Positions 3,158-20,785 of a stretch of DNA of 21,003 nt are shown piece after piece. How positions within the stretch are numbered: position 1 is the first letter of the stretch; each line of letters begins with the position of its first letter. The stretch is taken from positions 1 through 21,003 of the forward strand of contig DYJV01000041.1 in NCBI GenBank assembly GCA_020722945.1, given 5' to 3'. A program made the position numbers and the translations under genes. Below the pieces are notes generated by a model. The model did no database searches. It saw only the letters and a program-made list of their open reading frames with translations, and had not been told where the DNA came from. Origin of the DNA: Candidatus Methylomirabilis sp. GTDB taxonomy: Bacteria; DYJV01.

Positions 3158-6100
3158 CTATTGATCCTTTTCAGGAGATATAACATTCCCCGGATTTGTA
3201 AAAACTTCACCGGGGATATTGATAATATTTTTTAAAATAGAACCAATCTTATTTGTAATACTTTTAATAGGTTTTATCTTTATATCAGGGTCATCAAGCT
3301 TCCCAGTAACAGCTAAATATGTTACCAAAATAGCTTTTTTACCCTTTTTATCTGTGAATAAATAATTTACAATAGGAATCCATTTGATTATCTTATCTAC
3401 TGTTTTTAGAGGATAAACAGCAAGCGTTGAATCTATTGTTTTATTATCAAGGTCAATCTGACCAATATATATTATATCAAAAGCATTGCTTTTTAGTTTA
3501 AGGTTTTCTGTGGAGATAACTCCATTTTTTATCTGAAAATCTCCCTTCATTTTTTGATATTTGAAACCCTCTGTATTAATATCAGGGAATTTAAATTCAA
3601 ATATCTGGGATACATTTAAAATTGAAAATATAGAGCCAAAGAAGGCTCCCCTATTTACAAATCCATCTTTAAAATTGATGTTAAAACTTCCATTCATATT
3701 TTTATAAAAATCATTAAAATCATTAAATCTACTTCCAATATTGAAGTAAGAGCTCTCGCTTAAACCATAAAATTCAAAAGTTTTAGGTATAAGAAAATTC
3801 ATAATATCACCTATATTTATCCCAGAGTAAGTCCCTTCAAGGATAAAATGATTTTCACCATCAAAAAGTAACTCACCATTTGAAATATTAAGGTAACCAG
3901 TATCAGAAGCGGTAATTTTACCTCTATTTATTTTGATACCTTTACTGTTAAGCATACTATTAAAAATTATATTTGAGTAGTTGTTAACCTCTGTTGATAT
4001 ATTATCAAATTTAAAATCAAAGGTTATATCAAGACCTTGAAGCGTTTTGTGAAGGTTTTTAAGCCACAAATTTTTCGCTATATTCCCCTCTCTCTCTTTA
4101 TCTGAAATATTATCAACAGTATTTTTTTTACTATCAACCTTCCCCTTTTCCCCCCTTTGTAGTTTTGACGAGTTAATAGTAAAATTTTTACCGCTAACTT
4201 CAAAGTAACCTTTTTTTACTTTATCCAGATAGAGATAACCTCCAAGTGAGAGAAATCCTTTATCAAAATCACCATGTATATTGTTGAATGAAACCTTATC
4301 GTTGTTAATTGCAATTTCACCTTTTAAAGAGTTTATTACATTTCCACTTTTAAGAAAGAGTATATCTGAAGATAAAAATTTTATATTTGAATTATGAAAG
4401 GTTATCTTTTTGAGATTAGTAAGATTGCCGATTATATTAAGGTCTGCATCAACATTTTTTACTGTGTCTATATTTAGATTTATATCTTTTAAAAAAAGAG
4501 AATCTATTGAGTTGCTCCTCACATTTACAGAGAAATCGGGAGAGATAAATGGAGTTGTAATTTGCCCATTTATATTGTAACTGATATTGTCAAGAGTGCA
4601 TTTAATATCTTGAAGGGTGGCTGTTTCTTTACTATATTTTATGGTGCCTACTATATCTTTTATACTGTAATTGTCATACTTCAATGCTGAACCTTTTAAT
4701 TTTACCTCCCCTGTCTTAACCAAAATATTATCAAAACTACCCCCAAGATTTGTAGCTATCTCTAAATTTTCTAACCTACCAATATCTATAAGATCCCCTA
4801 TATACTCATCAAGAGTATCACCTTGCATATAAAGGTCTAATGTGTGATTATCGAAAATCTTGCATACTCTCCCTTCAGCAGTGTATCTACCCCCATTGTA
4901 ACCAAAGGTGAGATTATCGATGTATAAAGTATCATTTTTTAAACTCCCCTTACCATTTATATTGTAAAATTTGTGCCCATAAAGTGTCAACTCTGAATTG
5001 TTAAATTTTATATCCCCACCTCTAAGCCTTAACCTTAATAAATCTGTAAGTTCACCCTTTAGGTTTATCTTTGCGGAGATATTATCACATCTGCTGATAT
5101 CCCAATAAATCACATTATCTGCCCAAAATTTATCAAATGTGTTACCCATGACATTAAAATCAACAATTACAACTTTATCCATATAATTTGCAACAAAACC
5201 ATCAAGCTGATAATCTATATCTCTAAATCTTGCAAAACCACTCTCCACCTTAACTTCTTTTTCTGTAAAACTACCTTTCATATTTTTAACTAAAATATCT
5301 GTAAAAAAATCGTAGCTTAATTTTGTATTATCGACACTATATCTCCCTTTCAACTTTAGATTTGTGATATTATCCATAGGAATCTCAAAATCATCAGCAA
5401 AAATTTTACTTCTTCCATGGTTGAAACTTAGATATTTATTAAATGTTGGTAAGTCCTTAAAATCAAGATCTACAATCCCACTCCCTTTAATTAAATTTTC
5501 TTCAACTTTAATAGTAAAATCTTTTAACAAACTATTTTTTACCTTTGCTGAGAGGTTACTCGTTTGAAAATTTTTATTGTCTCCATAAAAATTAAAATTT
5601 AAATCGTAAAATGGGTAATCTTGTGCGATCCCTTTTAATGTTTCCCCTTTACCTTTGAAAAAGTATTTTACTGACTTTATATCTGAAATATCACCCTCTA
5701 CAACAAGAGCATCAATCGAGACAATCCCTCCCTCATAGAGAGATAACCATTTTTTAGGGAGAAACTTACCAATATAAGAAGATAAAATCTTGTTACTTTT
5801 AAGTGCAATTTTTAAATTAGTAAAAGAATCAAGATAAGCCTCACCTGAAAAAATCATTTGACTATCAATTTCAAGATTTATATCATTAAAATATATTCTC
5901 CAATCTTTAGGTGTAATTTTCGAAGATATTTTGATATCATTGATAGGGATAAAACCTTCATCTAATAGTTTTAACTGAATATCTTTTATCCTCAAAACAA
6001 ACTTATTATCTATATTGTCTATCTTACACTCAAATGATGTATTGCCAAGTTTTAAGTTCTCTGTTTTTATAATGTTTAAGCCAAGATTCTTCCCCTTTAC

Positions 6101-6766
6101 ATCAATATTCAGGAAAGAATCTTTAATATTTATATCACCCTTCCCAACAACTTCGCCTCTTTCACCATTTATTGTAAGGTAACTTTTCACTGTTATTTGA
6201 AATTTATCTTTAAGTGAAAAATTCTGAATTTTAAATTCTGGAACTTCTAATTGGGCAGAGTTGTTATCAATCTTGATATTAAAATTAAGATTTTCCAGAT
6301 TAATGTTTTTTGAAGTAATAACAAATGGTGGCTTAAAATATCTTTCAATCCCTTTTTTAGGATGTAAATCTTTACTCTCTTTGCCTCTATCTATATTTTT
6401 TCCAGATTGATCTTTGTAGTAGTCATATTTTAGCTCTATATCTTTTGCTGATACATTATCAAATTCTACTATTCCAACTAAAAGTGGGAATATATTCAGA
6501 GATAAAGCACCACTCTTGAGAGTTAATTTACTCTTCTTGTCCAATAATGAATTGTTGTATAATTTAATATTATCAAACTTTAAATAGATTTTATCCTTCA
6601 CTCTAACATCAAGAGAACCTATTTTTAGAGAGTATCCAAAATGTTTGGTAACTTCTGATTCTAAAAAACCTTTTATTTTCTCTGAAGGGATATTATGAAG
6701 AGCAACTAATGCTGATAAAATAAGAAACAATAAGATAATTATTGAACTTAGAATAAATTTTTTCAT
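3158..6766 (-). CDS. AsmA/YhdP-like envelope lipid-transport protein
   Basis: This large protein (1202 residues) has one N-terminal signal-anchor (about residues 4-22) and a long, beta-rich periplasmic body. The N-terminal 100 residues look like an AsmA domain, and the body is full of alternating short strands (…GSLDVRVKDKIYLKFDNIKL-type repeats). The C-terminal 200 residues (FFGSIFSILNVSQIFEF, then LTKSNAF-like and ALVTYLAVTGKLDDPDIK motifs) match the AsmA-like C-terminal region found in YhdP. Its length is close to that of E. coli YhdP. YhdP and its relatives are thought to form grooves that carry phospholipids to the outer membrane. It is the last gene of a minus-strand run, with ATG 3 nt after the comF stop. 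No good Shine-Dalgarno is visible, so coupled translation is likely. No clear terminator was found after its TAG. Confidence 0.82.
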   Translation of the reverse strand: MKKFILSSIIILLFLILSALVALHNIPSEKIKGFLESEVTKHFGYSLKIGSLDVRVKDKIYLKFDNIKLYNNSLLDKKSKLTLKSGALSLNIFPLLVGIVEFDNVSAKDIELKYDYYKDQSGKNIDRGKESKDLHPKKGIERYFKPPFVITSKNINLENLNFNIKIDNNSAQLEVPEFKIQNFSLKDKFQITVKSYLTINGERGEVVGKGDINIKDSFLNIDVKGKNLGLNIIKTENLKLGNTSFECKIDNIDNKFVLRIKDIQLKLLDEGFIPINDIKISSKITPKDWRIYFNDINLEIDSQMIFSGEAYLDSFTNLKIALKSNKILSSYIGKFLPKKWLSLYEGGIVSIDALVVEGDISDIKSVKYFFKGKGETLKGIAQDYPFYDLNFNFYGDNKNFQTSNLSAKVKNSLLKDFTIKVEENLIKGSGIVDLDFKDLPTFNKYLSFNHGRSKIFADDFEIPMDNITNLKLKGRYSVDNTKLSYDFFTDILVKNMKGSFTEKEVKVESGFARFRDIDYQLDGFVANYMDKVVIVDFNVMGNTFDKFWADNVIYWDISRCDNISAKINLKGELTDLLRLRLRGGDIKFNNSELTLYGHKFYNINGKGSLKNDTLYIDNLTFGYNGGRYTAEGRVCKIFDNHTLDLYMQGDTLDEYIGDLIDIGRLENLEIATNLGGSFDNILVKTGEVKLKGSALKYDNYSIKDIVGTIKYSKETATLQDIKCTLDNISYNINGQITTPFISPDFSVNVRSNSIDSLFLKDINLNIDTVKNVDADLNIIGNLTNLKKITFHNSNIKFLSSDILFLKSGNVINSLKGEIAINNDKVSFNNIHGDFDKGFLSLGGYLYLDKVKKGYFEVSGKNFTINSSKLQRGEKGKVDSKKNTVDNISDKEREGNIAKNLWLKNLHKTLQGLDITFDFKFDNISTEVNNYSNIIFNSMLNSKGIKINRGKITASDTGYLNISNGELLFDGENHFILEGTYSGINIGDIMNFLIPKTFEFYGLSESSYFNIGSRFNDFNDFYKNMNGSFNINFKDGFVNRGAFFGSIFSILNVSQIFEFKFPDINTEGFKYQKMKGDFQIKNGVISTENLKLKSNAFDIIYIGQIDLDNKTIDSTLAVYPLKTVDKIIKWIPIVNYLFTDKKGKKAILVTYLAVTGKLDDPDIKIKPIKSITNKIGSILKNIINIPGEVFTNPGNVISPEKDQ

Positions 6767-6769
6767 TAG

Positions 6770-7477
6770 CTATACTGCCATTGCCATTGTAAATATATAT
6801 ATCTCAGAGTTAGGAAAAAGTTTTGCAACTTCATTGACAGTAGAACCAGATGTAATAATATCATCTACTATAAGAATTTTACTATTGGTAAAATTATCGG
6901 GGTTACAGTTTAGCTTAAAAGCAGATGCTATATTTCTCTCCCTCTCTTTGTAATTTTTACAGAGTGATTGACTTTTACTGTTTCTTTTACGCAAGATAAG
7001 GTTGGGGGTATATTTTATCCTGAATCGCTTGGATATAAACTCTGCAAGAGTATTTGATTGGTTAAATCCTCTTGTTATCCTCTTATAAAAATGAATCGGG
7101 ATAGGGATAACTACATCAAATTGGGGATAATTAACAGGGAATCTTCTTATAATAAGCCTTTCAAAATAATCTTTTATGAAGTAGATATTTGAATATTTCC
7201 ATTTATGAATGATCTCTCTTCCAACCCCATCATATATAAAAATACCCCTGAGCATTTTGATATTGTTGTTAAGATTGGGGCATAAACACCTATTTGATAG
7301 TGGCGAACCACAACGGAAACAAATTTGAGAGTCTCTCTTTTCAATGAATAGTATTTTTTTAAGACATTCTTTACAAATCCAAGAGGGATATGCTTTTGAG
7401 AGAATATTACGCTCACACACAACACATCGCCTATTGAATATAGAATCGATAAACTCAGAAAATAATCTCTTCACCAC
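6770..7477 (-). CDS. comF: ComF-family phosphoribosyltransferase-like protein
   Basis: A 235-residue protein with the two-part ComF layout. An N-terminal cysteine cluster (C18, C21, C35, C38, C53, C56, C64, C66) is likely to bind zinc. It is followed by a phosphoribosyltransferase fold with the PRPP-binding loop ILIVDDIITSGST (201-213) and the usual RGFNQS motif. ComF proteins are needed for DNA uptake in several naturally competent bacteria, but the gene is widespread and its biochemical role is unresolved. The start is GTG at 7477, with a second GTG directly behind it. It overlaps the end of gpmI by 23 nt and no Shine-Dalgarno stands out, which suggests translational coupling. The stop TAG lies 3 nt before the next gene. 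Confidence 0.88.
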   Translation of the reverse strand: MVKRLFSEFIDSIFNRRCVVCERNILSKAYPSWICKECLKKILFIEKRDSQICFRCGSPLSNRCLCPNLNNNIKMLRGIFIYDGVGREIIHKWKYSNIYFIKDYFERLIIRRFPVNYPQFDVVIPIPIHFYKRITRGFNQSNTLAEFISKRFRIKYTPNLILRKRNSKSQSLCKNYKERERNIASAFKLNCNPDNFTNSKILIVDDIITSGSTVNEVAKLFPNSEIYIFTMAMAV

Positions 7478-8975
7478 TCATTTCGTTAGGCTTTGGGATT
7501 CCCATAATTTTGAGTATAGAGGGTGCAACATCGGCAAGCTTACCATTTTTTAATATGAATTTATCTTTCAATGGTGTAACAAGGATACATGGAACACTAT
7601 TGGTGGTATGTGCAGTATGCGGCTTCCCATATTTGTCAAGCATCTGCTCACTATTACCATGATCACTAATAATAAGAGCTGCTCCACCTTTGGCAATAAC
7701 TTTGTCAACCACCCTCCCAACACACAAATCAACAACTTCAACAGCCTTAACAGCAGCCTCATATACACCAGTATGACCAACCATATCACAATTTGCATAA
7801 TTAACTACTATGAAATCGTATTTATCAGAATCTATCCTACTCAACAACTCTTCTGTAACAATATAAGCACTCATTTCAGGTTTTTGATCGTATGTCTTGA
7901 CATCTTTGGGGGATTGAATAAGAACTCTCTCTTCATTTTTGAAAGGAGTCTCCTCCCCTCCATTGAAAAAATATGTAACATGAGCATATTTTTCTGTTTC
8001 TGCTATTCTTAATTGTGTGAGTCCATAATTTGACAAAACTTCACCAAGTATATTTTTGGGTCTTTCTGGTGGGAATGCAGCAGCAAGGTTAAACTTTTCA
8101 TCATATACATTCATCGATACATAATAAGCTAATTTAGGTGGTCTGATATCAAATCTGTCAAAATTGGGCTGTGTAAGAAATGTTGTCATCTCTCTTGCTC
8201 TATCAGCCCTAAAATTAAAGAAGATAACTACATCGTTATCTTTTATTGTGGCACCCTTCTCAACCATAAATGGGACAAGAAACTCGTCTGTTTCACCTAA
8301 GGAGTATCTACTCTCTACCTCTGCAATCGGATCGTTAAAAATAGTGCTGCTACCATTGATTAATATTTCAGCAGCTTCCTTTACTCTCTCCCAGCGGTTG
8401 TCCCTATCCATTGCATAAAATCTTCCCATAACTGAAGCAATTTTGCCAACTTTAATCTCTGCTATAAAATCTTTAAGCTGTTTGAGATAGAATTTCCCAG
8501 AAGTAGGAGATGTGTCTCTACCATCCATAAAGCAGTGAATATAAACTTTAGAAAATGATTTTAGTTGAGCAAGTTTAAGCAGTGCAAAGAGATGCTCAAT
8601 ATGAGAGTGAACCCCTCCATCAGATAAAAGACCCATTATGTGAACTGAAGAGTTTTGCTCTGAAGCAATTTTAAAAGCATTGTTTAATGGGATATTTTGG
8701 AAAAAGGAGCCATCTTTTATAGATTTGGATATTCTTGTGAGATCTTGGTAAACAATTCTTCCTGCTCCGATATTTAGGTGTCCAACCTCTGAATTACCCA
8801 TCTGACCATCAGGCAACCCAACATTTTCACCACTTGTATCTAATCTGCTATTTGGATATTCTGCAAAAAATCTTTCAATATTTGGCTTGTGAGCATTATT
8901 TACAGCATTAAAGTAGTCATCATCACTCAATCCAAAACCATCAAGGATAATAAGGGTAACAGGCTTGAATTGCAT
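7455..8975 (-). CDS. gpmI: 2,3-bisphosphoglycerate-independent phosphoglycerate mutase
   Basis: This glycolytic/gluconeogenic enzyme interconverts 3- and 2-phosphoglycerate. At 506 residues it is the usual length for the Mn-dependent, cofactor-independent type. Visible motifs are metal-binding D12 (LIILDGFG), nucleophile S62 in GQMGNSEVGHLNIG, SDGGVHSH, FMDGRDTSP, FNFRADRAREMT, the second metal-site motifs NYANCDMVGHTG and ISDHGNSEQM, and HTTNSVP near the C terminus. All catalytic regions are intact. The ATG begins 3 nt after the stop of the LapA-LapB gene and the 3' end overlaps comF by 23 nt, so it sits inside an operon of otherwise envelope- and competence-related genes. The identification is secure. 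Confidence 0.97.
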   Translation of the reverse strand: MQFKPVTLIILDGFGLSDDDYFNAVNNAHKPNIERFFAEYPNSRLDTSGENVGLPDGQMGNSEVGHLNIGAGRIVYQDLTRISKSIKDGSFFQNIPLNNAFKIASEQNSSVHIMGLLSDGGVHSHIEHLFALLKLAQLKSFSKVYIHCFMDGRDTSPTSGKFYLKQLKDFIAEIKVGKIASVMGRFYAMDRDNRWERVKEAAEILINGSSTIFNDPIAEVESRYSLGETDEFLVPFMVEKGATIKDNDVVIFFNFRADRAREMTTFLTQPNFDRFDIRPPKLAYYVSMNVYDEKFNLAAAFPPERPKNILGEVLSNYGLTQLRIAETEKYAHVTYFFNGGEETPFKNEERVLIQSPKDVKTYDQKPEMSAYIVTEELLSRIDSDKYDFIVVNYANCDMVGHTGVYEAAVKAVEVVDLCVGRVVDKVIAKGGAALIISDHGNSEQMLDKYGKPHTAHTTNSVPCILVTPLKDKFILKNGKLADVAPSILKIMGIPKPNEMSGEEIIF

Positions 8976-8978
8976 TAT

Positions 8979-10238
8979 TTAGAACCCTATTTTAAATGAG
9001 TAAGTCATAGATGAAAAACTTTTACATTGAGGACAGTAATCGCTATATTTTGAGGCAGTATAGCCGCAAGAATTACATACACAAACAAGATTCACCCCAT
9101 CTTTTATGTTTAATACTTTTCTGAATATCTCAATATTTTCATTTATCTCCATATTTTTTCTATACATTGATTCAGCAGATATCAAGTTTGCAAATTTTGA
9201 TAAATCTCCACTACCTTCAGAAAATTGCTTTGAAATCTCAAGGGCTTTATCAAAGTTGTTTGTTTTGAGTAGAATTAGAGCTTCTAAAAGCTTTGATTCT
9301 GGCAAATTTAACTTACTCAATGTCCGTTCTGCTTCTTTTACAACTTTATCATCATCTGAATTGAGTGCTAATTTTGCTATTTCACATAGAAAAATAGGAT
9401 TTTTGCTGGTTTTGAAATCATCTTTGAGTGTATTAATAAGAGTTGTTTTATCTCCTATTGTATCTATATTTTGAATTTTTAAAAAATAAAATGGCAATGA
9501 TTGAGGATACTGCTTAATTAGAGAGTTGATCTTACTTTCTGAATAGTTACTTTTTGCATCAAGATATTTTAGTTCAAGGAGAATTTGCTCATTGGCAACT
9601 TTGTCAATATTTTTGGTATCCATTATTTTTTCTTGTATCATAAGAGCTTTATCATATTTTTCAAGTTTTCTGTAACTATCTCTTATTAATTCAAAAAGTT
9701 CTCTATTTTTAAAATTGGTATCTTGGATAAACTCTTCAGATAAATTTATTACAGATGACCACTGTTGTGATTGAAAATAAAATTTCATAAGGTAAAATTT
9801 TGAAATATCAAAAGGCAGACTATTAATGAGACTCTCTTTTTCACTATCATCCTGCTCTATTTGATTTAAAAAGATGATAGAGGGTGCCACTTTATCGTGT
9901 TTAACAGATGCTCTTATGGATTTGAGAGAACCTTTTAGATTCCCATAAAAATAATCTTTTAAACCTTTTTCAAAGAGCTGCAAAGCTTTCTCCTTATCTT
10001 CAAGCGTGTTTTTTAGCTTCCTATTTTTTAATGAAGAGGATAGCTCTTTAATTAAGGAGATAAAAAACATTAAGAGAAAACCAATTATTAAAGAACCTAA
10101 AATAACTAACCCAACTGGAAGATTGTAAAAATTGTTTGGACTTATATGTACATCAACTTTAGTAGGGTTAAAAAAGACAAAGAGTGCAGTAGCAGCTAAA
10201 AGTATAAAGAAGAGAAAAGAGTAAATTTTACCTTTCAT
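8979..10238 (-). CDS. LapA-LapB fusion: membrane TPR protein with C-terminal rubredoxin-like zinc domain
   Basis: This 419-residue protein joins two parts that are separate neighbouring genes (lapA/yciS and lapB/yciM) in E. coli. Residues 1-66 form a LapA-like (DUF1049) hairpin of two membrane helices (about 5-22 and 40-62), with the NPTKVDVHIS-type linker and a short cytoplasmic extension. Residues about 85-370 are helical tetratricopeptide-like repeats. The C terminus has a rubredoxin-like zinc site, C388-x2-C391 (CNSCGYTA) and C402-x2-C405 (CPQCKSF), as in LapB. In E. coli LapB tunes LPS synthesis by directing FtsH to LpxC; that role here is an inference. The ATG has a good AAGGAG and it is the first gene of the minus-strand run. 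Confidence 0.85.
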   Translation of the reverse strand: MKGKIYSFLFFILLAATALFVFFNPTKVDVHISPNNFYNLPVGLVILGSLIIGFLLMFFISLIKELSSSLKNRKLKNTLEDKEKALQLFEKGLKDYFYGNLKGSLKSIRASVKHDKVAPSIIFLNQIEQDDSEKESLINSLPFDISKFYLMKFYFQSQQWSSVINLSEEFIQDTNFKNRELFELIRDSYRKLEKYDKALMIQEKIMDTKNIDKVANEQILLELKYLDAKSNYSESKINSLIKQYPQSLPFYFLKIQNIDTIGDKTTLINTLKDDFKTSKNPIFLCEIAKLALNSDDDKVVKEAERTLSKLNLPESKLLEALILLKTNNFDKALEISKQFSEGSGDLSKFANLISAESMYRKNMEINENIEIFRKVLNIKDGVNLVCVCNSCGYTASKYSDYCPQCKSFSSMTYSFKIGF

Positions 10239-10664: not shown

Positions 10665-12530
10665 ATGAAAAGAAAAATTTTAATTATTTTAGTTTTTTTA
10701 CTGTCAATTTCCTCCCAACTATACTCTTTAGGGGATTACCATACAAATTACAACAACCTCCCCGTAAAAATAGTTTTTGACCCTGCAAATTCACTTATCA
10801 GCCTCCCTATACCATTGCCAAACGATGCAAATACCTCTGTGCTCAACTCTTCTAAAACCGCTTTATACTTACCAATCGAGCAGGGCGATTCTTACTCCTC
10901 CATTTTCATGAAAAAAGCTATCAATGATCTTGGGATAAAAGGTTTTCCTCCTGAAACAATAATCACTATCCCTCTAAATACAGATACCCCAATTGATACA
11001 AACACACTCTATTCAAATATATTTCTTATTGCATTAAAACTCAATCTTTCAGGCACTCCTACTATCAATACTGCTCTTCCACCTGTTGCAGGACCCAAAG
11101 AGCTTATTATTGCACAAGATGGGAATGTTATTAAGATTCACCCCAAAATAAAATTGATGGCAGATGCACAATATGTAGTTCTTATTACAAAAGGTGTCAA
11201 GACTACTGATGGACAACTTGTCGGTCGTGATGCTGCTATCGAGCTTTTATTCAAAACATCATATTCACAACTTATAAAAAGCATGGGTTTAAATACAGAC
11301 TCTCTACTTGCTCTATTCACATTTTCAACTGCTGAGAAAACTCTCGGATTATCAGCTTTTGCAAAGATGCAGTTAGGCTACCCCTATACATCTACTGACA
11401 CTCTCTCTTACAATACCACTATTACATATGAGCTTCAAAGTATGCTTGCAGCAGTCCCTCTCCTTCCATCATCTATAGGGACTCAATCCTCCTCAAGTTT
11501 ATACGGATTACAATACTCTGCTTCAACATTTTCATCATACAATGTGACCACTCTCTCCACAACATATACTCCAATATCTGTCCCCACAATAACTATCTTT
11601 GGTCAAAATCCTAATAAAGTCGTAATATTTCAGCATGGATTAGGTCAGAATAAAAGCAATGCCTTTGCACTTGCAGCTAATTTTTTAACTGCAGGCTACT
11701 CAATTATTGCTATTGATGCACCTCTACATGGAGATAGAGTTGACTCCTCAGATTATAATATGGATTGCAATATGGATGGGATTATATCTTCTGGGGAGTG
11801 TTTTTTTACTACCAATCTTGTAAATGATAGGATAAATATATATCAATCTGTATTTGATCTTACTATGCTTCTAAAAAATATCAAATCTGGTAATTTTGAT
11901 TTTAATGGTGACGGGAATAACGATATCCCCTCAGATATCTACTTTGTAGGACAATCACTTGGGTCTATCGTTGGCTCAATATTCTCCAAATATAATAGTG
12001 AAGATTTAAAAAAGATAGCACTAAATGTTGGCGGTGCTAATTTGGCTGCACTTCTTGACGGCACACAAATTCCTGACCTTCAAAATGCAATCAAATCTTT
12101 AGGTTACACCAAAAATTCTGCACCATACTTTGTATTTACAGGGATCTTAAATCTTTTTCTTGATCCTGCTGACCCATTTTATCATGTTGATTCATCTATC
12201 AAGGATAAAACCATTTTACAAACTGCTTACGGTGATACAATAGTTCCCAATACATCCAATGAACTGCTATCTGCAGCTGTTGGTTATCAAACTCCAACCA
12301 TAATAACTGACCTTGATACCGATAAACATATCATTTATCCTGCTTCAGGATGGTATCAATATGGTGGTATCACAAGCAGTGCCACTTATACTCTGCCTCA
12401 CGGTTTTTTACTATCTCCTTCAGCAGACCCTACATATTATGATACAGAGTTTGTCCAAAAAGCTACTAAGGCTGCTCAGTATCAGATACTTAACTTTTTC
12501 TCTGATGGCGTGCTACTTTTTTTTCTTTAA
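10665..12530 (+). CDS. Secreted VolA/Pla-1-like lipase (alpha/beta hydrolase)
   Basis: A 621-residue exported lipase or lysophospholipase. A Sec signal peptide (about residues 1-21, ending QLYS) is followed by an N-terminal Ig-like region (about 35-200), where KELIIAQDGN and YVVLITKGVKTTDG are typical of the VolA/Pla-1/cef family. The alpha/beta-hydrolase domain then has the oxyanion loop VVIFQHGLGQNKS, nucleophile S431 in VGQSLGS, a likely acid D524 (YGDTIVPN) and a likely H579 (LPHGF). Unlike VolA, a surface lipoprotein, I see no lipobox cysteine after the signal, so the mature enzyme may be soluble or otherwise held. The start has GGAG 7 nt upstream. The FadL-type gene follows after 36 nt, which fits release of fatty acids by the enzyme and uptake by the porin. 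Confidence 0.85.
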   Translation: MKRKILIILVFLLSISSQLYSLGDYHTNYNNLPVKIVFDPANSLISLPIPLPNDANTSVLNSSKTALYLPIEQGDSYSSIFMKKAINDLGIKGFPPETIITIPLNTDTPIDTNTLYSNIFLIALKLNLSGTPTINTALPPVAGPKELIIAQDGNVIKIHPKIKLMADAQYVVLITKGVKTTDGQLVGRDAAIELLFKTSYSQLIKSMGLNTDSLLALFTFSTAEKTLGLSAFAKMQLGYPYTSTDTLSYNTTITYELQSMLAAVPLLPSSIGTQSSSSLYGLQYSASTFSSYNVTTLSTTYTPISVPTITIFGQNPNKVVIFQHGLGQNKSNAFALAANFLTAGYSIIAIDAPLHGDRVDSSDYNMDCNMDGIISSGECFFTTNLVNDRINIYQSVFDLTMLLKNIKSGNFDFNGDGNNDIPSDIYFVGQSLGSIVGSIFSKYNSEDLKKIALNVGGANLAALLDGTQIPDLQNAIKSLGYTKNSAPYFVFTGILNLFLDPADPFYHVDSSIKDKTILQTAYGDTIVPNTSNELLSAAVGYQTPTIITDLDTDKHIIYPASGWYQYGGITSSATYTLPHGFLLSPSADPTYYDTEFVQKATKAAQYQILNFFSDGVLLFFL

Positions 12531-12566
12531 TTTTTTAAATCAAAAATATAAAAGGAGGCTACCGAT

Positions 12567-13973
12567 ATGTTTTTAAAGATAAATAAATTATTATTGATCA
12601 CCTGTTTTGGAGTTATTTTCTCCTCATCAATGCTCTTTGGAGCTGGTTTTCATGTAAATGTTGAGCAGGGAATGAAAGCAATGAGTCTTGGTGGTGCATT
12701 TGTAGGTCTTGCAGATGACCCTACAGCTATTTACTACAACCCAGCAGGTCTTACCCAGCTTGAAAAAAAGTTTAACATTGCAGGGACATACGCTTTCGGT
12801 CAATTTGCTCCTACCATACACTCACCTGAAGTTTACGACAGCTATGGTGTATTGAGGGCAAGTGATCTCTCAAAGGACCAAGACAAAAGATGGTCTCAAA
12901 TTCCAAGCACATATATCTCATATAAGGTTGCAGACAAAGTAACTCTTGGTTTTGCAGTATTTGCTCCATTCGGCACCGCTACTGACTGGACAAGCTCATG
13001 GGTTGGGAGATACTTCAGCGACAAGATAGACCTCAAAACTTACAATTTTAACCCTACCATTGCTTACAAGTTGAATGATAAACTTTCATTTGGTTTTGGA
13101 ATTAATTATGTCTATAGCGATGTTGAAATTAAAAAATCTTTTAGCTATCCATTCCTTGCTCTTAACCCTTCTGTCCAGAAAACTCTTGGGTTTACACCAT
13201 CTGACAGCAGTAAAATGAGCCTATACAATAGACTTTACGATAGAAACTACGATGTTGATATAAAACTTTCTGGCGATACTGACTCAAGTGGAAGAGGATG
13301 GGGTTACAATATCGGCTTCCTTTTCAAACCAAACAACGATTGGCAAATTGGTGCAATTTACAGAAGCGAAGTAAATCTTGATTTTGAAGGTAAAGCTACA
13401 TACAAATATATGCCCGGTATTGCAACTCTCCCTTCTGAAGTTAGTATTGCACAACTTGGATACCCTCTATTCCAACCTTCAGAAATAACAGCCTCAATCA
13501 AACTTCCAGATTACGCAGCATTGGGGATTGTTAATAAATCTTTTAAAGATTGGACATTCTTATTCGATTTTTATTGGACAGGTTGGTCAGATTACAAAGA
13601 GCTATCTGTAAGCTATGATAAATTCCCTTATAGTAGCACCATTCCTAAAAAATGGGATGATGTAATAGCATTGAGACTTGGAATCCAGTATGAAGTGAAC
13701 CAAAATCTTGCTTTCAGAGTTGGATATATGTATGACCAATCACCAACAAACGATGAAACAAGAGCTCCTGAACTTGCATGTTCTGACAGGAATGATGTAA
13801 CTTTTGGTGTTGGCTATAAATTGGGGAATTTTAATATAGATGGAGCATTTTTGATAGCTTTCTTTAAAAATGAAGATAGTAATCTTGTTGATGAGCAAAC
13901 AAAGACAGCATTTAAAGGGGAGTGGGATACAATGGCTTATGTTCTTGGGGTAACTTTATCTTACGGATTCTAA
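12567..13973 (+). CDS. FadL/OMPP1/TodX-family outer-membrane transporter
   Basis: This is an outer-membrane beta-barrel of 468 residues that carries hydrophobic compounds such as long-chain fatty acids. The signal peptide ends near SMLFGA. The mature N terminus is the FadL hatch region GFHVNVEQGMKAMSLGGAF, followed by DDPTAIYYNPAGL, the most conserved stretch of the family. The rest alternates short amphipathic strands, and the protein ends in an aromatic residue (LSYGF), the usual signal for barrel assembly. A strong AAAGGAGG lies 8 nt before ATG. It is the second gene of a two-gene unit with the lipase. In Vibrio cholerae the VolA lipase gene is likewise linked to a fadL gene, which supports a joint role. 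The actual substrate (fatty acid, hydrocarbon or aromatic) cannot be told from sequence. Confidence 0.93.
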   Translation: MFLKINKLLLITCFGVIFSSSMLFGAGFHVNVEQGMKAMSLGGAFVGLADDPTAIYYNPAGLTQLEKKFNIAGTYAFGQFAPTIHSPEVYDSYGVLRASDLSKDQDKRWSQIPSTYISYKVADKVTLGFAVFAPFGTATDWTSSWVGRYFSDKIDLKTYNFNPTIAYKLNDKLSFGFGINYVYSDVEIKKSFSYPFLALNPSVQKTLGFTPSDSSKMSLYNRLYDRNYDVDIKLSGDTDSSGRGWGYNIGFLFKPNNDWQIGAIYRSEVNLDFEGKATYKYMPGIATLPSEVSIAQLGYPLFQPSEITASIKLPDYAALGIVNKSFKDWTFLFDFYWTGWSDYKELSVSYDKFPYSSTIPKKWDDVIALRLGIQYEVNQNLAFRVGYMYDQSPTNDETRAPELACSDRNDVTFGVGYKLGNFNIDGAFLIAFFKNEDSNLVDEQTKTAFKGEWDTMAYVLGVTLSYGF

Positions 13974-14066: not shown

Positions 14067-15128
14067 TTAAATATTCTCTTTTACTACATCAAAATTTATA
14101 GAGCTTTTTGTAACCCTGCTTGTCCCATTATACAAAAATATAAATAGAAAGATAAACTCAAGAAGTATAAAAGATTTTAATGTTATCAACTCTTTTAATC
14201 CTGATACTATATTAAAATTAAAGGTATAAGAGCTGTCGTATGTGAATATTGCTATCAAAAAAGAGTATGCAATTACAAATATAGCCATCCTCTGATAATA
14301 TGAGAATTTCTTCTCACCCCTATAATCTTTTCTGAAAAATTCTGAAAGAACTCTATATCCCTGACTAAAAATTATAGTCACAATAAATGAGATAATGTAG
14401 TGCCCTGTTAAAAATAGTATTATCCCGGCTACCCCTGCAAATCCAAAATTTATAGTTGCCATCAACTGAGTTGGGACAAGTGCCTCACCTTCAAGATGAC
14501 TTTCGTAGGCAACTTTTTTTGTCCCTCCATAAAAAACAGTATTAAATTTTGAAAAAACCTTTCTCCATAAAGGGGAAAGAGTGCTAACAGCTTTCCCATA
14601 ACAGCATCCAAAACTTATACATGCAAACCTCCCAATAGATTCACCAATGCAGTATGATGCAAGAAGTGATGACATAATTGGAACAATATATCCTATACTA
14701 TCTTTTAATGGGATTTGATAAAAAAAACTGACTGTGAACATTACAAGAAATGGTGAAAAGATACTACCCACAAAAACCGCACCACCCACTGTAAATGTAT
14801 GTTTTTTTTTCTCTACAATCATCGCAACTATCTTTGAGGCAGGAACACATATTACAAGGATCAAAGCAGTAAGTGTAAAAAGAAAATCAAATTTAAAACC
14901 TGCTGAACCTGAAAGAGTTATAAAAAGTGCCGTTGCAATAAAGTATGCAAGAGCATTAAAAAATCCATAGAATGTGAGATTGATTGCTGACCATCTATTG
15001 TCATCCATCTTTTTTATAGGGATTGATGCTATAAATTGCCACCTCTCATTAGGGAGATATTTAACCCCTAAATAGTATAACCCAGCAAGAAAAAGTATTA
15101 ATAAAGTTATAAATAAGAAATTTTCCAT
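14067..15128 (-). CDS. Lgt-like integral membrane transferase (prolipoprotein diacylglyceryl transferase family)
   Basis: A multi-spanning membrane protein of 353 residues, with hydrophobic segments spread along the whole length. The middle motif IGESIGRFACISFGCCYG (161-178) resembles the GHAIGRIGCFLAGCCYG-type motif of Lgt-family proteins. VPTQL (218-222) matches the conserved P-T-Q-L, and RVLSEFFRKDYRG (259-271) matches the Lgt C-terminal R...EFFR.D.RG. The usual Asn and Glu of the classical Lgt signature (GRxGNFxNxE) are missing, so this is probably a paralogue with another acceptor rather than the housekeeping Lgt. The ATG is preceded by GGAG. It is the last gene of the minus-strand lipid run, 19 nt after the decarboxylase gene. 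Lgt moves diacylglycerol from phosphatidylglycerol; what this protein moves is unknown. Confidence 0.72.
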   Translation of the reverse strand: MENFLFITLLILFLAGLYYLGVKYLPNERWQFIASIPIKKMDDNRWSAINLTFYGFFNALAYFIATALFITLSGSAGFKFDFLFTLTALILVICVPASKIVAMIVEKKKHTFTVGGAVFVGSIFSPFLVMFTVSFFYQIPLKDSIGYIVPIMSSLLASYCIGESIGRFACISFGCCYGKAVSTLSPLWRKVFSKFNTVFYGGTKKVAYESHLEGEALVPTQLMATINFGFAGVAGIILFLTGHYIISFIVTIIFSQGYRVLSEFFRKDYRGEKKFSYYQRMAIFVIAYSFLIAIFTYDSSYTFNFNIVSGLKELITLKSFILLEFIFLFIFLYNGTSRVTKSSINFDVVKENI

Positions 15129-15147: not shown

Positions 15148-16140
15148 TTATTTAACAATAATGTTTTCAGCTATTGTTTCTCTAACCTTAACCTCTGTTT
15201 CTACAATAGGTCTTGTAAAATTTTCAGAAAATCTGCTTTTCACATCAGCTCTAAGGCTATTTTTGATTATATCGTCAGAAAATTTAACTCTGTTTTCCTG
15301 AAAAAATAGTATTACAGTGCTACTTCCCGGTCTGAAAAGACTTTTAACACAACCCTTTTTTAAAAAATATCCAATATTTATAGGTTTTGGAGAGTCATAT
15401 CTATCTTCAGAGTAACATTGAACTATTTTCCCAATCATCATCGCTACTAATTCCACCATTATTACAAGACCACAATTTGTTCCCCCATCAACATCTGTAT
15501 CTATGACAGTAACAACCCGTTTATTTTTTGAAAGAGGATTTAATATCTTTACTGAGAGAGGGTTACAAGAGTGGTAGTATCCATCTATCTCATAAAAATC
15601 TCTTACAACTCCAGATACAGGGAGGTGATTGTAATGATACTTATCGGGAGTTAACCTGAATATAGCATAATCACCATTTATAAAAGCTTCTTTCCATTGC
15701 TCCTTCTCAATTAATTCATCAAAATCAAAAAATTTCTCTTTAATATAAAATAGTGAAGATTTTTTGATAGAAGCTGCAAACATCTTTGAATCAGCAGGTG
15801 ATGCTATCAAGTTATCGTTTAATTCCAACACCCTGCAATCCCAGAACTTTATCTTCCTTTCAAAAAAATCGTGGTAAGTTTGAAATTTTGAAAGTGGCTC
15901 ATAAAATTCATCTTTATCTATATTAAACTCTTTTATTAACTCCTTCAATCTCTCTTGAGAAAGCTTTCTATTAAAATTAATATGTGCAAGAAATGAAGTT
16001 AAAAACTTTGAGGTAGCTAATTTAAGAATAAAATTCCTATCCTCTCTCGATTTTGAATATAAAAAATTGATAAATCTATCACCCTGTAACTTTTCAGTTA
16101 CAATTTTATTACTTTTTCTACATACATATTGATGAATCAT
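15148..16140 (-). CDS. Phosphatidylserine decarboxylase-like pyruvoyl enzyme
   Basis: A 330-residue member of the phosphatidylserine decarboxylase family, which makes phosphatidylethanolamine and cleaves itself to form a pyruvoyl group. Visible motifs are HDFFERKIK, SPADSK with D117, FRLTPDKYHYNHLPVSG with H169 and H172, and the self-cleavage region FRPGSSTVILFF with G272-S273. These correspond to the Asp-His-Ser triad of the family, with GSS in place of the commoner LGST. A longer frame begins at a TTG at 16185, but the ATG at 16140 has GGAG 7 nt upstream (MIHQYVC...) and is preferred. It overlaps the upstream gene by 23 nt. As most bacteria have a separate housekeeping Psd, this copy may act on a different phospho-lipid made by the neighbouring genes; that is inference. 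Confidence 0.85.
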   Translation of the reverse strand: MIHQYVCRKSNKIVTEKLQGDRFINFLYSKSREDRNFILKLATSKFLTSFLAHINFNRKLSQERLKELIKEFNIDKDEFYEPLSKFQTYHDFFERKIKFWDCRVLELNDNLIASPADSKMFAASIKKSSLFYIKEKFFDFDELIEKEQWKEAFINGDYAIFRLTPDKYHYNHLPVSGVVRDFYEIDGYYHSCNPLSVKILNPLSKNKRVVTVIDTDVDGGTNCGLVIMVELVAMMIGKIVQCYSEDRYDSPKPINIGYFLKKGCVKSLFRPGSSTVILFFQENRVKFSDDIIKNSLRADVKSRFSENFTRPIVETEVKVRETIAENIIVK

Positions 16141-18373
16141 CCAATTTCTCCATATCTGAAAAGTTATTTGAAGTTTTATCTTCAACTATTTTTAAAATTG
16201 CAGTAACAAGCAAAACTATTTCATCGAGTGTCAACTGCCCCCTATCCATTTTGCTTTTCAAATTCTTATAATCCTCACATCCACTCAATCTTTCTAAAAC
16301 ATCAAAAGCTTCCGATATATGCTCCATTCGTAGATCTTCCCGATAAAAACTTTCTGCTGATAAATTAAATGATTCTGAATCTTTATCAAATGGCGTCTCT
16401 ATATTTATTTTGCTACAAATTTTCTTTGTCAATCTTGAAGAGACTCTACTTTTTTTATCTTTTACCCTATTTTCAAGATCAGCAACAATATCGTGAAGAT
16501 TACTATTTTCAATAATAGAACTCCCCTCTTGCTTTATGAAATTTATCAGAGCTTGGTTGTAATCATCAATTTTTACTTTAAAATAATTGTTGTATCTACT
16601 GCTCTTCTTTATATTTTTGCAATTTTTTAATATATTTTGCATAAATACATTTTTACTATCTCTATTTACAAAGAAAGATTTTAAGCCTATTGCTGATGCA
16701 AAAATAGGAAATCTTCGTTCACTTTCAATTGTAGGGGTGTCAGGGATATCACTGTGAGTAATTTTACCACTTGCTGCTAATCTGTAAGCAATTTCTGTTA
16801 TAAGGATTTGCAATGAAGTTGCACTGCTCATATCTTTGATTATAGAATCAAAAAGGCTGTAATACCTACCCTCAAAACCTGTCCACCCAACTTTGTTTAT
16901 CTCTCTCAAACGGTAAAAACAGTAAAAAGATAGATTTTTATGAAAGATTCCAAGCTGATTTAGCTCTTTTTTTAATCTTTCATGATTTCCAACTTTACCA
17001 TCAAATGCTGGTGAATTAGACGTGCTTAAAGGAGCAACAAGATAATCTAACAACCTATAATCAGGAACAAAATCCCCTTTAAGCCTCAACACTCTTTTAA
17101 AAAACTTGTCAACCCATTCAGGACCAAAAGGTGTAAATGTTTTCCCAAATAATTTTATCTTTGCTTTATTCTTCCACTTTCTCCAGAGCATTCTCAAATG
17201 AGTATAATCAAGCTCATGAGGTAAAAAGCCGAGTGCTGTTTCGGGATGCATATTTTCAAAATTAAGCCTGTGGGGTGATGCTGAATAGTTAGAGGGGAAG
17301 AGTGAAATAAAATGTTCAACTATTTTGATCACTAAATCTCCAAAATATTTCTCATTTTCTACTCCCAACTCTTTTGAATCACGAAAACTCTTTTCGAGAA
17401 TCGAGCTGCCAATATTTATATGTATTCCATTATTTGAGAGCGACGTTGTTGAAATATCGGGCAAAATTACCAAATTATTTTTTAAAAGTCCTGCATCTTT
17501 ACATTTTGAGATAGTTTTTAATTTACTCATACTCAAAACTTTGTGGCAGAGGTGCATATACTCTTTCTTCTCTTCCCCCTTATCCCAACCTGAAAGAGAT
17601 GGGCTAACAAATATCTCTCTATAAAGCTCATCAGGGATTACAGAATTCAAACTTCTCTGATTGACTGGTGGGAGTGGCGATTCATAAACTACTACCTTTT
17701 GACCTGACGAAGTCAGAGCAAATTTTATATTAGAGTATTCAACAGCAAGTTGTGTAAGTAAATACCTCAAAAGATACTCTTCAGAAATCCCAACTCCTAT
17801 ATCTCGTATATTTATACCCTTTATAAGATAAAGTGATAATGTTTCAGGGGAAGTGTTATCATTTGAGAAGTTTTTAAGTATAGATTCACCTATACTCTTT
17901 GATTTTTGATCTAAAAACTGAAAAAGATCTGTAAGTGCAATCTTTATAAGGTAACTGACAGGGATCCTGACAAATACTCTCTCATTTATATTTATAAAGA
18001 AAGTATCGTAATCCTCTCTAAATCCTGACAAAGGGTTACTCTTATCTTTGAGAAGATCATTACTAAAAAGAGTTTTTGCATCCTCTGAAAGGTTATCTAT
18101 TGGTATCCTTACCCAACTATTCTCCCATATCCTGCTTTGACTATTATTAAGATAATCATCAATTTTTTCGAGGATTGATGGTGAAATATCTTTATTTAAT
18201 ACTCTCTGCTTGAGGTTTTTATAAAATAGAGAGTTTTGGATATTTTGAACAATATCTATGTTAGAAGCACTACCCTCTACTGCAACCTGAAGCTCTGTCT
18301 CTGTGCCTGCTGTTGTAAATATGTGGTTTGGCAAAATTTTTAGAGATTCATCTTTTATCTTTATAATTTTCAT
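16118..18373 (-). CDS. Large cytoplasmic protein of unknown family
   Basis: I do not recognise this 751-residue protein. It has no signal peptide or membrane segment, so it is probably cytoplasmic. The central part looks well conserved in character: HPETALGFLPHELDYTHLRM (376-395), FGKTFTPFGPEW (409-420), GWTGFEGRYYSLFD (496-509), THSDIPDTPTIESERRF (539-555) and SSRYNNYFKV (591-600) are rich in His, Glu, Arg, Trp and Tyr in the way enzyme cores are. The last 130 residues are charged and less distinctive. It lies between the PHP-glycosyltransferase gene (3-nt gap upstream) and the decarboxylase gene (23-nt overlap), and has no clear Shine-Dalgarno, so its translation is tied to theirs. The context points to the same lipid or glycolipid pathway. 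No reaction can be assigned. Confidence 0.85.
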   Translation of the reverse strand: MKIIKIKDESLKILPNHIFTTAGTETELQVAVEGSASNIDIVQNIQNSLFYKNLKQRVLNKDISPSILEKIDDYLNNSQSRIWENSWVRIPIDNLSEDAKTLFSNDLLKDKSNPLSGFREDYDTFFININERVFVRIPVSYLIKIALTDLFQFLDQKSKSIGESILKNFSNDNTSPETLSLYLIKGINIRDIGVGISEEYLLRYLLTQLAVEYSNIKFALTSSGQKVVVYESPLPPVNQRSLNSVIPDELYREIFVSPSLSGWDKGEEKKEYMHLCHKVLSMSKLKTISKCKDAGLLKNNLVILPDISTTSLSNNGIHINIGSSILEKSFRDSKELGVENEKYFGDLVIKIVEHFISLFPSNYSASPHRLNFENMHPETALGFLPHELDYTHLRMLWRKWKNKAKIKLFGKTFTPFGPEWVDKFFKRVLRLKGDFVPDYRLLDYLVAPLSTSNSPAFDGKVGNHERLKKELNQLGIFHKNLSFYCFYRLREINKVGWTGFEGRYYSLFDSIIKDMSSATSLQILITEIAYRLAASGKITHSDIPDTPTIESERRFPIFASAIGLKSFFVNRDSKNVFMQNILKNCKNIKKSSRYNNYFKVKIDDYNQALINFIKQEGSSIIENSNLHDIVADLENRVKDKKSRVSSRLTKKICSKINIETPFDKDSESFNLSAESFYREDLRMEHISEAFDVLERLSGCEDYKNLKSKMDRGQLTLDEIVLLVTAILKIVEDKTSNNFSDMEKLDDSSICM

Positions 18374-18376
18374 TTA

Positions 18377-20785
18377 TTAATTGATAGCGTAAAGAATATT
18401 TTCTAATAGAGATTTGCTCTCTTCAACTTCAATAAAGTTGTTACTCTCCTGAAACATTTGCTCTATAATGTTATCCCAGTTATAATATTCGAGAACTCTT
18501 CTTCTTGCCTCTTCTCTAAATTTTATATAATTTTCAGGATTATATCTCTTCTCTTCAATAAGTTGACTTATTAGATTTACCCAATCATCGTAATTTTGGG
18601 TAGGTAGAGAAAATCCTGTTTTACCATTATCAATTATCTCCTTTGGTCCTCCAACATCTGAAACAATAGAGCAAACCCCGCATGCTTGTGCTTCTAATAC
18701 AACCATGCCAAACGTCTCTGTAAGACTTGGGAAAATTAAGAAATCAGCATCTGAATATATATCTGGTAACTTATTATACTCAACTTTACCTTTGAAGGTA
18801 AGATTATCTACATCTTTATATCTTTTTTTAAACTCTTCAAGATTAGGTCCTGCACCCACTATTTTAAACTCTATATCTTTATATCTTCTCTGAAGCTCCA
18901 TGAAAACCTTTATTGCAAAATCTATATTTTTATCCATAGATACCCTGCCTACATACAGAAGAGATACTTTTTTTCTCTTTTGTAACTCTAAAAAAGATTT
19001 TTTAGGATAAAATACATCAGTTTCTATACCTCTATTAAATTTTGTCAGTTTACTTTTTGGAATACCCCTTTTCTCTAAAAATTCAATATACTCATGAGAG
19101 GGAACAGCTGCAAAGCTCATTAAACTGTAAAATTTAACAAGAAGTGTCTCTATAAGTTGCGAGAGATCCTCTTTCTCACTAATATACGATATTTCAGATG
19201 CAAAATCGGTATGAAATACTCCAATACTTTTTATATTCAGAAGTCTTGATATTATTACTCCAAGCATTCCAACAGGACCTGGCGTAGATATATAAATTTC
19301 ATCAGGATTTAATTGATCCACTATCTTAAGTGCTTTTAGAAATGATGGAATCTTTATCGTTATATCAGGGTAGTAAGGTAGTGGAAATGAGTAAACTTCT
19401 GGGATAAGGATTATATTGCTACTTAATCTACTGTTTTCCCTCTCCTCACTATTGAGTGAAGAGATAATTTTGAGAGGCAAACCTTTTCTCTCTGATATTT
19501 TATCTATAGTTTTTAAAGTTACAGATACTCCGTTGAGATCATCAATTGTATCTGTAAACCACAATATCTTCTTCTTTTTTTTGCTGAATTTGAAGTTCCT
19601 TTTTAACTCTTCGAGTATCTTCCTATTTTTATTCAGATGGTTAAAACTGCTGAAAAAGGGTGATATCATAAAGAGTAAGGTTATTATCGAACCTACATCC
19701 CTGCTTATTTTAAAAAAATTGACTTTTTTAATATTTTTCCCAATTGAAGATACAATCTTCCCAAGATATTCATCTGTAACATTTGAAATCTTATCATAAA
19801 TAATAGCGGTTCTTTTCTCAACATCTTTATTAATATCTATTTCCGAACACTCCTCAATAAGAGAGACAACCGTATCAGCAATCTTAGAGTTTAACTCTTT
19901 TGAGAGTTTTGATATCTTGTATTTATCAATTATAGAGATTTTTTTGTTGGCAAATAAGTAACTATTAATATTAGAAAAGAAATTTTCTGACTCTATCTTA
20001 TTTGATTTTGTATATTGGAATGCAATATTATAAATAGTAAAAACAAAATCTTGAAATGTATTATTTCTACCACCAAAGGTGCTTTTCTTATTAAGAATAT
20101 TATTTAAAAAATGTTTTGGTGTTGCAGCATCACAAATTGTATACGTTGTCCCACAATATAGACCACTATGGTCATCTGACCCACCAGTAAAACTTTTTTT
20201 CCAAGGAGAGTAAGGGAGCGGTTCTATCTTGTATTTTCTAAAAAGATGCTCTATGTTGTAAGGCTCAAGATAGGAGAGTATATCAATCCATGTCTGATTG
20301 TGGGTAAGATTCCTCGCACCATTGATACCTTCAAATACATCAAACAGAAGTATTAACTTTTCAAGATGTTCAAGTTTTAATTTATTGTTTATCGAAAAAG
20401 TTGCATGAGCCACTGAATATGGGAGCTCTTCATTTATTATATAACTTCTTAAATCATAAATATTGTTCCTGATTTTATTTATAAAATCAAATTGTGACTC
20501 TGTAAAACCAAATATCAGGATATGTATCTTGCAGTTATCTTCCGGGAAATATGTAGTTGTCTCAACACCTGTAAAAGTGTTTAGAGGGTATTTTTCATTA
20601 AGAATAAGGGAACCTGTAATATCATTGTGGTCAGTAATTGTTACAAAATCCATACCCCTTTCCATAGCTGTGTTGTAGATATGGTCAACTTTTGTATAGC
20701 TTTCGCTTGCACCTATCTTCTTGAGAAACCACTCTGATGGGTGTTTGGAGTATTCAGAATGAACATGAAGGTCAACTTTTGCCAC
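18377..20785 (-). CDS. PHP-domain / GT4 glycosyltransferase fusion
   Basis: An 802-residue two-domain protein. Residues 1 to about 240 are a PHP metallo-hydrolase domain with a full set of likely metal ligands: H7-x-H9, D52-H53 (TITDHND), E75 (TGVET), H88, H127 (VAHATF) and D204-D205-H206 (GGSDDHSG). A helical linker (about 250-400) includes a hydrophobic stretch at 364-381. Residues about 405-790 are a GT-B fold glycosyltransferase of the GT4 type, with a donor-site motif E690-x7-E698 (TETFGMVVLEAQACG), LLYVGRVSMDKN and the acceptor-side GVFHTDF. The start is GTG at 20785 with AAAAGGAG 6 nt upstream, in keeping with the MAKVDLHVHS opening of PHP proteins. It is the first gene of the run. The PHP part might remove a phosphate from the glycosylated product, or be regulatory. 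Confidence 0.87.
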   Translation of the reverse strand: MAKVDLHVHSEYSKHPSEWFLKKIGASESYTKVDHIYNTAMERGMDFVTITDHNDITGSLILNEKYPLNTFTGVETTTYFPEDNCKIHILIFGFTESQFDFINKIRNNIYDLRSYIINEELPYSVAHATFSINNKLKLEHLEKLILLFDVFEGINGARNLTHNQTWIDILSYLEPYNIEHLFRKYKIEPLPYSPWKKSFTGGSDDHSGLYCGTTYTICDAATPKHFLNNILNKKSTFGGRNNTFQDFVFTIYNIAFQYTKSNKIESENFFSNINSYLFANKKISIIDKYKISKLSKELNSKIADTVVSLIEECSEIDINKDVEKRTAIIYDKISNVTDEYLGKIVSSIGKNIKKVNFFKISRDVGSIITLLFMISPFFSSFNHLNKNRKILEELKRNFKFSKKKKKILWFTDTIDDLNGVSVTLKTIDKISERKGLPLKIISSLNSEERENSRLSSNIILIPEVYSFPLPYYPDITIKIPSFLKALKIVDQLNPDEIYISTPGPVGMLGVIISRLLNIKSIGVFHTDFASEISYISEKEDLSQLIETLLVKFYSLMSFAAVPSHEYIEFLEKRGIPKSKLTKFNRGIETDVFYPKKSFLELQKRKKVSLLYVGRVSMDKNIDFAIKVFMELQRRYKDIEFKIVGAGPNLEEFKKRYKDVDNLTFKGKVEYNKLPDIYSDADFLIFPSLTETFGMVVLEAQACGVCSIVSDVGGPKEIIDNGKTGFSLPTQNYDDWVNLISQLIEEKRYNPENYIKFREEARRRVLEYYNWDNIIEQMFQESNNFIEVEESKSLLENILYAIN

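Follow-up and report, generated by a model that had tools for sequence, protein, structure and literature searches.

The glutamine synthetase/glutamate-cysteine ligase superfamily includes the GshA and GshAB proteins, the YbdK/GCS2 carboxylate-amine ligases, the Pup ligase PafA and the depupylase Dop. PafA and Dop have a glutamine synthetase-like cradle in common, and Dop removes isopeptide-linked Pup with an active site of the same kind (PMC8599861). Here we describe a gene from a stretch of 21,003 nucleotides (referred to as the window) in a Candidatus Methylomirabilis genome. A sequence-only reading had singled out its product as the window's best candidate for new chemistry, a view upheld by the finding that it represents a new family within a lipid module for which we found no description.

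A large protein outside the known sequence families

The gene occupies positions 16118..18373 on the minus strand. The open reading frame was confirmed in the window, starts with ATG and encodes 751 residues. From this reading frame, an AlphaFold model and 87 homologues, the product is a candidate carboxylate-amine ligase of a new family with a glutamine synthetase/GshA-like fold, and we call it the ligase below. No Pfam or NCBIfam model matched the protein at E<=1, a PHROG search gave no match, and a sequence search of the PDB returned chance-level rows only (E 1.5), none of them convincing. When 46 relatives were scanned singly against Pfam, scattered chance hits were obtained, each in one or two members; none of the 46 matched PF04107 (GCS2/YbdK) or, at E<=1, PF04262 (GshA) or the Pup ligase model (PafA/Dop). 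HHalign gave no signal between the family and either GshA (a few sequences) or GCS2 (three sequences), probably because the alignments were too shallow (Neff 3 versus 2). Since there was no profile-profile match to GshA or GCS2, the ligase appears to be a separate family by sequence rather than a member of GshA, GCS2 or PafA/Dop, and its initial description as a large protein without a recognisable family is borne out at this level. PADLOC gave no meaningful match to the protein, and a role as a defence gene was rejected on this ground.

The predicted fold belongs to a known superfamily

To place the protein by structure we used an AlphaFold2 model built from an alignment of 46 sequences (pLDDT 84.7, pTM 0.89). 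The highest VIA-align Z scores were obtained with GshAB (19.9), GshA (19.1), YbdK (17.9), PafA (16.9) and Dop (16.2), with lower scores for yeast glutamate-cysteine ligase (10.4) and type III glutamine synthetase (GS-III; 7.1). Every match with Z >4 fell within the glutamine synthetase/glutamate-cysteine ligase superfamily, the next unrelated row scoring 3.8, and Foldseek returned the same single superfamily, with a best E of only 4.8e-4. The curved antiparallel beta-sheet cradle is present in the model, which is predicted rather than solved, and the superfamily landmarks follow in order along the ligase: GxExE (first strand), DNTSPE, then NNGxH and ExR, each of which lies on a strand. A viral structure library gave nothing convincing for the ligase, the only amidoligases being two at E 1.6-2.6.

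The idea of an enzyme with a new fold was rejected because the fold search returned this superfamily. Taken together, the structural matches and the invariant motifs argue that these proteins are ATP/Mg-dependent carboxylate-amine ligases and form a new family, not a new fold, and the assignment of the fold and of the metal/ATP site is strongly supported by prediction. Structure prediction with a fold search had been proposed as a check on the sequence-only reading; its outcome is that no known family is matched by sequence, although the fold itself is a known one.

Invariant motifs define a predicted metal/ATP site

Three blocks rich in His, Glu, Arg, Trp and Tyr had been picked out from the single sequence, and the active site had been placed in residues 376-600. 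An alignment of 87 sequences, the check then suggested, shows that the blocks are real: their conservation across the homologues is far above chance, and 100 residues of the ligase are invariant. Motif coordinates below are on the minus strand.

Four motifs correspond to superfamily landmarks. The predicted metal-binding ExE motif, G23-x-E25-x-E27-x-Q29 (18287..18307), was assigned from conservation and from range alignment to GshA. Of the 84 sequences that extend over this motif, all have G23, E25 and E27 and 83 have Q29, and strand 21-27 of the model carries GxExE. The ranges aligned with E. coli GshA (2d32) start at residue 12 of the ligase and 14 of GshA, so that E25 and E27 would fall on GshA E27 and E29 if the alignment is ungapped. 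The second motif, D172-N-T-S-P-E177 (17843..17860), is a predicted metal-binding strand motif and, judging from motif order, the counterpart of GshA D60...E67; D172, N173, S175, P176 and E177 do not vary in the 87 sequences, and the model has strands at 169-172 and 175-179. Motif order likewise suggests that N314-N-G-x-H318-x-x-x-x-S323 (17405..17434) is the counterpart of GxHYNFS in GshA and NGSGMHxH in glutamine synthetase. N314, N315, G316, H318 and S323 are invariant in all 87 sequences and 316-322 forms a model strand. The fourth, G499-F-E501-G-R503-Y-Y-S (16850..16879), is the likely counterpart of the superfamily ExR motif (YIEVRS in GshA, FEVRG in GCS2); G496, G499, E501, R503, S506 and F508 are invariant in the 87 sequences, with a model strand at 499-504. 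The sheet positions of NNGxH318 and E501-G-R503 are putative, being predicted from motif order.

Two further motifs are specific to the family. The block HPETALGFLPHELDYTHLRMLWRKW (residues 376-400; 17174..17248) is the best-conserved 25-residue stretch of the ligase, with a mean conservation of 0.92 over 87 sequences. In the block and nearby, P377, E378, H386, E387, T391, L393, R394, M395, W397, R398, W400 and K403 are invariant in all 87, and it is possible that this segment determines substrate specificity. The helix motif E550-S-E-R-R554 (16709..16726) consists of five residues (E550, S551, E552, R553 and R554) that are invariant across the 87 sequences. The window copy is somewhat divergent and has F555 where the 86 others have Q.

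The metal/ATP site is thus predicted to be spread over four strands. Residues 376-600 are indeed conserved and enzyme-like, but three of the four predicted motifs (GxExE at 23-27, DNTSPE at 172-177 and NNGxH at 314-318) lie outside them, and GFEGR (499-503) is alone among the blocks first noted in belonging to the core motifs of the superfamily (as ExR).

The ligase gene is chromosomal and scattered across phyla

Apart from the window's own genome, only three of 386 related genomes hold the ligase gene, with 43-46% identity over nearly the full length; further relatives were found in the phylum of one of these three. When 85,000 genomes (one per species) were scanned by alignment, 285 stretches encoding relatives came up, and the best 80 of the 285 were fetched. 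These 80 are mostly from Thermodesulfobacteriota (Geobacteraceae, Desulfobacterales and Syntrophaceae), together with Nitrospirota, one Ca. Brocadia bin and one Acidobacteria bin. Relatives from several phyla share about 45% identity with the window copy. Phyla are intermixed in the ligase tree. The window sequence has a long branch there and groups with a Thermodesulfovibrio sequence, a grouping flagged as possibly false by the tree program itself. No match was found in the phages, plasmids and viral contigs searched; a phage or plasmid origin was rejected on this basis, and the gene is chromosomal and highly conserved. A decayed copy is present in one genome (G388; locus L008, 1363-2462), where remnants matching residues 20-350 are split into two open reading frames; this genome lacks the operon-type decarboxylase and the Lgt-like gene.

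The ligase gene is linked to two paralogues of lipid enzymes

All genes of the run in the window lie on the minus strand in the order PHP-GT4 fusion, ligase, phosphatidylserine decarboxylase and Lgt-like gene. The decarboxylase (15148..16140) matches PF02666 (1.3e-36), is a member of that family by sequence and retains the PGSS self-processing site. The ORF caller placed its start at TTG 16185; homologues point to ATG 16140, which is most likely the true start, given the GGAG just upstream and the similar beginning of the homologues (...HQYI). With this start, the ligase and decarboxylase reading frames overlap by 23 bases. In 75 of the 77 loci with sufficient sequence, the decarboxylase gene is directly downstream of the ligase gene on the same strand. 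The translational tie to a lipid decarboxylase, as originally claimed, is confirmed by the overlap. The two exceptions are L080 and L016, and in L016 the decarboxylase gene lies 5.4 kb downstream, with two sensor-kinase-like open reading frames in between. When compared with the ordinary ilvC-psd-pssA-leuA copy, the decarboxylase is a second one in the genome, where the canonical psd-pssA pair is located elsewhere, between ilvC and leuA; it also scores far under the NCBIfam PRK00723 cut-off (182 versus 371 bits).

After a gap of 19 bases follows a membrane protein gene (14067..15128, minus strand), a divergent paralogue of the diacylglyceryl transferase Lgt identified by PF01790 and an Lgt-fold model. 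PF01790 was matched by 37 of 38 homologues, and the model (pLDDT 95.8) gave Z 13.6 with E. coli Lgt (5azb), the next row being 5.0. An Lgt-like gene lies <=2 kb from the ligase gene in 59 of 70 loci. In comparison with the genome's own Lgt, this partner is divergent (E ~1e-7 versus 3e-69) and about 90 residues longer. The window's genome has a canonical lgt outside the run, and one is also found in G064, G401, G400, G088 and G399, whereas in G139 the operon copy is the only lgt match. Given this separate Lgt in the window's genome, G064, G401, G400 and G088, the Lgt-like partner is likely to use an acceptor other than prolipoproteins. Loss of the textbook Lgt residues (GCC motif) was rejected as the mark of a different enzyme, as GCC also stands in the canonical Lgt of the genome. 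In that canonical protein (L116, G000:C157:16516-17250), GRIGCLFAGCCYGKP and YGG replace the textbook GRxGNFxNGE and HGG, and it can be described as a cysteine-rich Lgt variant.

With canonical psd-pssA and lgt elsewhere in the window's genome, both partners are extra paralogues. In one phylum of 24 genomes, four (G064, G399, G400 and G401) have a near-complete ligase, and three of these have both an operon-type decarboxylase (E<1e-150) and the Lgt paralogue (E<1e-80), the ligase of the fourth being at a contig edge. The other genomes of this phylum have neither partner at a comparable score. The restriction of the partners to ligase-bearing genomes suggests that the three genes are present or absent as a set.

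The first gene of the run (18377..20785, minus strand) encodes a fusion of a PHP domain with a GT4 glycosyltransferase (PF00534, 1.9e-36), in which the N-terminal PHP similarity is weak and under the curated cut-off. The proposed translational tie of the ligase to a glycosyltransferase is reflected in the 3 bases between the end of this gene and the ligase ATG, but it is looser than that to the decarboxylase: full-length PHP-GT4 relatives are near the ligase in 15 of 80 loci, in several arrangements. Occasional extra genes are found in the module (L088 9142-10455, L013 11545-12957 and L021 12895-13827). Those between the decarboxylase and the Lgt-like gene encode either a radical SAM protein or a phosphatase-like protein of the HAD type; in 11 loci a member of a zinc-dependent phospholipase C family is encoded downstream. 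The window is rich in envelope genes. Positions 10665-13973 encode a VolA/Pla-1 family phospholipase (TIGR03502, 2e-23, under its cut-off) and, directly after it, a transporter of the FadL type; the two genes run towards the lipid operon convergently and are reminiscent of the Vibrio VolA-FadL pair. Consecutive genes at 3158-10238 encode a YhdP-like protein, a ComF-like phosphoribosyltransferase with a double zinc ribbon, a phosphoglycerate mutase and a LapA/LapB-like protein.

Proposed function

The model and the conserved motifs make it probable that the ligase is an ATP/Mg-dependent carboxylate-amine ligase that performs the amide-forming step of a three-enzyme lipid module. E25, E27, E177 and H318 would serve as metal ligands, and the rest of the ATP/phosphoryl-transfer site would be supplied by E501 and R503. 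We infer ATP-dependent amide formation in which the ligase would phosphorylate a carboxylate and an amine would then displace the phosphate. The decarboxylase paralogue would strip the alpha-carboxyl from an amino acid and the Lgt paralogue would move a diacylglyceryl group. The known forms of both constant partners use phospholipids as substrates, so that the product would most likely be a lipid, or the head group of one, that bears an amide, as the neighbouring genes suggest. The order of steps and the substrates are a guess: gamma-glutamylation, or other side-chain aminoacylation, of an amine might be followed by decarboxylation of the retained alpha-amino acid. A gamma-linked aminoacyl group would leave the alpha-amino acid free, and a pyruvoyl decarboxylase could then act on it.

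The ligase might instead make a soluble small molecule, for instance as a non-orthologous synthetase of gamma-glutamylcysteine or a related thiol or peptide, with the lipid genes sharing the operon for regulation only. GshA and GshAB are the best structural matches, and PF04262 and PF04107 are unmatched in the window's genome, indicating that a known glutamate-cysteine ligase is absent there. However, the decarboxylase and the Lgt paralogue are linked directly to the ligase almost everywhere and are present or absent together with it, which points to a shared pathway, and the recurring neighbour families with representatives examined include none that is thiol-related. We therefore consider a soluble product unlikely. 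It is more doubtful still that the ligase cleaves an amide in the lipid pathway, as an amidase or deacylase that uses the same fold and ATP/phosphate in the manner of Dop. PafA and Dop are among the close structural matches (Z 14-17), and the removal of Pup by Dop is a precedent for such chemistry, but Dop is an exception in the superfamily, the better matches GshA and YbdK are ligases, and the Pfam model for Pup ligases is not matched by the present family. That the protein is a catalytically dead scaffold, or regulates the decarboxylase, as the tight pairing with one enzyme might suggest, is very improbable because the predicted metal/ATP residues are all invariant in 84-87 sequences despite about 45% identity to the window copy, which would be unexpected for a dead site.

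Returning to the amide-forming ligase, we tentatively propose that it and both paralogues produce membrane lipids of an undescribed class, in which a head group derived from an amino acid is attached through an amide, and that such lipids are widespread among Geobacter relatives, sulfate reducers, Nitrospira and others; this wider proposal has somewhat less than an even chance of being correct. If true, the chemistry of lipid head groups would gain a new route, used by anaerobes of environmental importance. The placement of the ligase predicts that cultured organisms such as Trichlorobacter thiogenes and Desulfosarcina should have a lipid that is lost on deletion of one gene. Literature searches found nothing on a ligase-decarboxylase-Lgt operon; the 2009 amidoligase survey of Iyer et al. 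may mention it.

Comparison with known systems

The ligase shares its predicted fold with GshA and GshAB (PF04262; 1v4g, 2d32 and 3ln7) over about 375-410 residues (Z 18-20), and ExE on the first strand and the putative counterparts of the GxH and ExR strands follow in the same order. In contrast to E. coli GshA, it is about 250 residues longer, has conserved blocks of its own (376-400 and ESERR) and has no Pfam or profile match; it is also linked to lipid genes and not to glutathione genes. The fold and the ExE and ExR motifs are likewise shared with the YbdK/GCS2 carboxylate-amine ligases (PF04107; 1tt4 and 1r8g; Z 17.6-17.9), but the ligase is twice as long and lacks a PF04107 match. The fold similarity extends to PafA and Dop (Z 14-17), whose TPE motif we take to resemble the TSPE of the ligase; unlike these proteins, the ligase has no Pfam match, a lipid-gene neighbourhood and a distribution in different phyla. 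Thus the superfamily and the fold are already known, and what is new here is the ligase family, a strictly conserved family of large enzymes with at least 285 loci in a one-genome-per-species collection and without a Pfam or NCBIfam name, together with a conserved lipid module for which no description was found.
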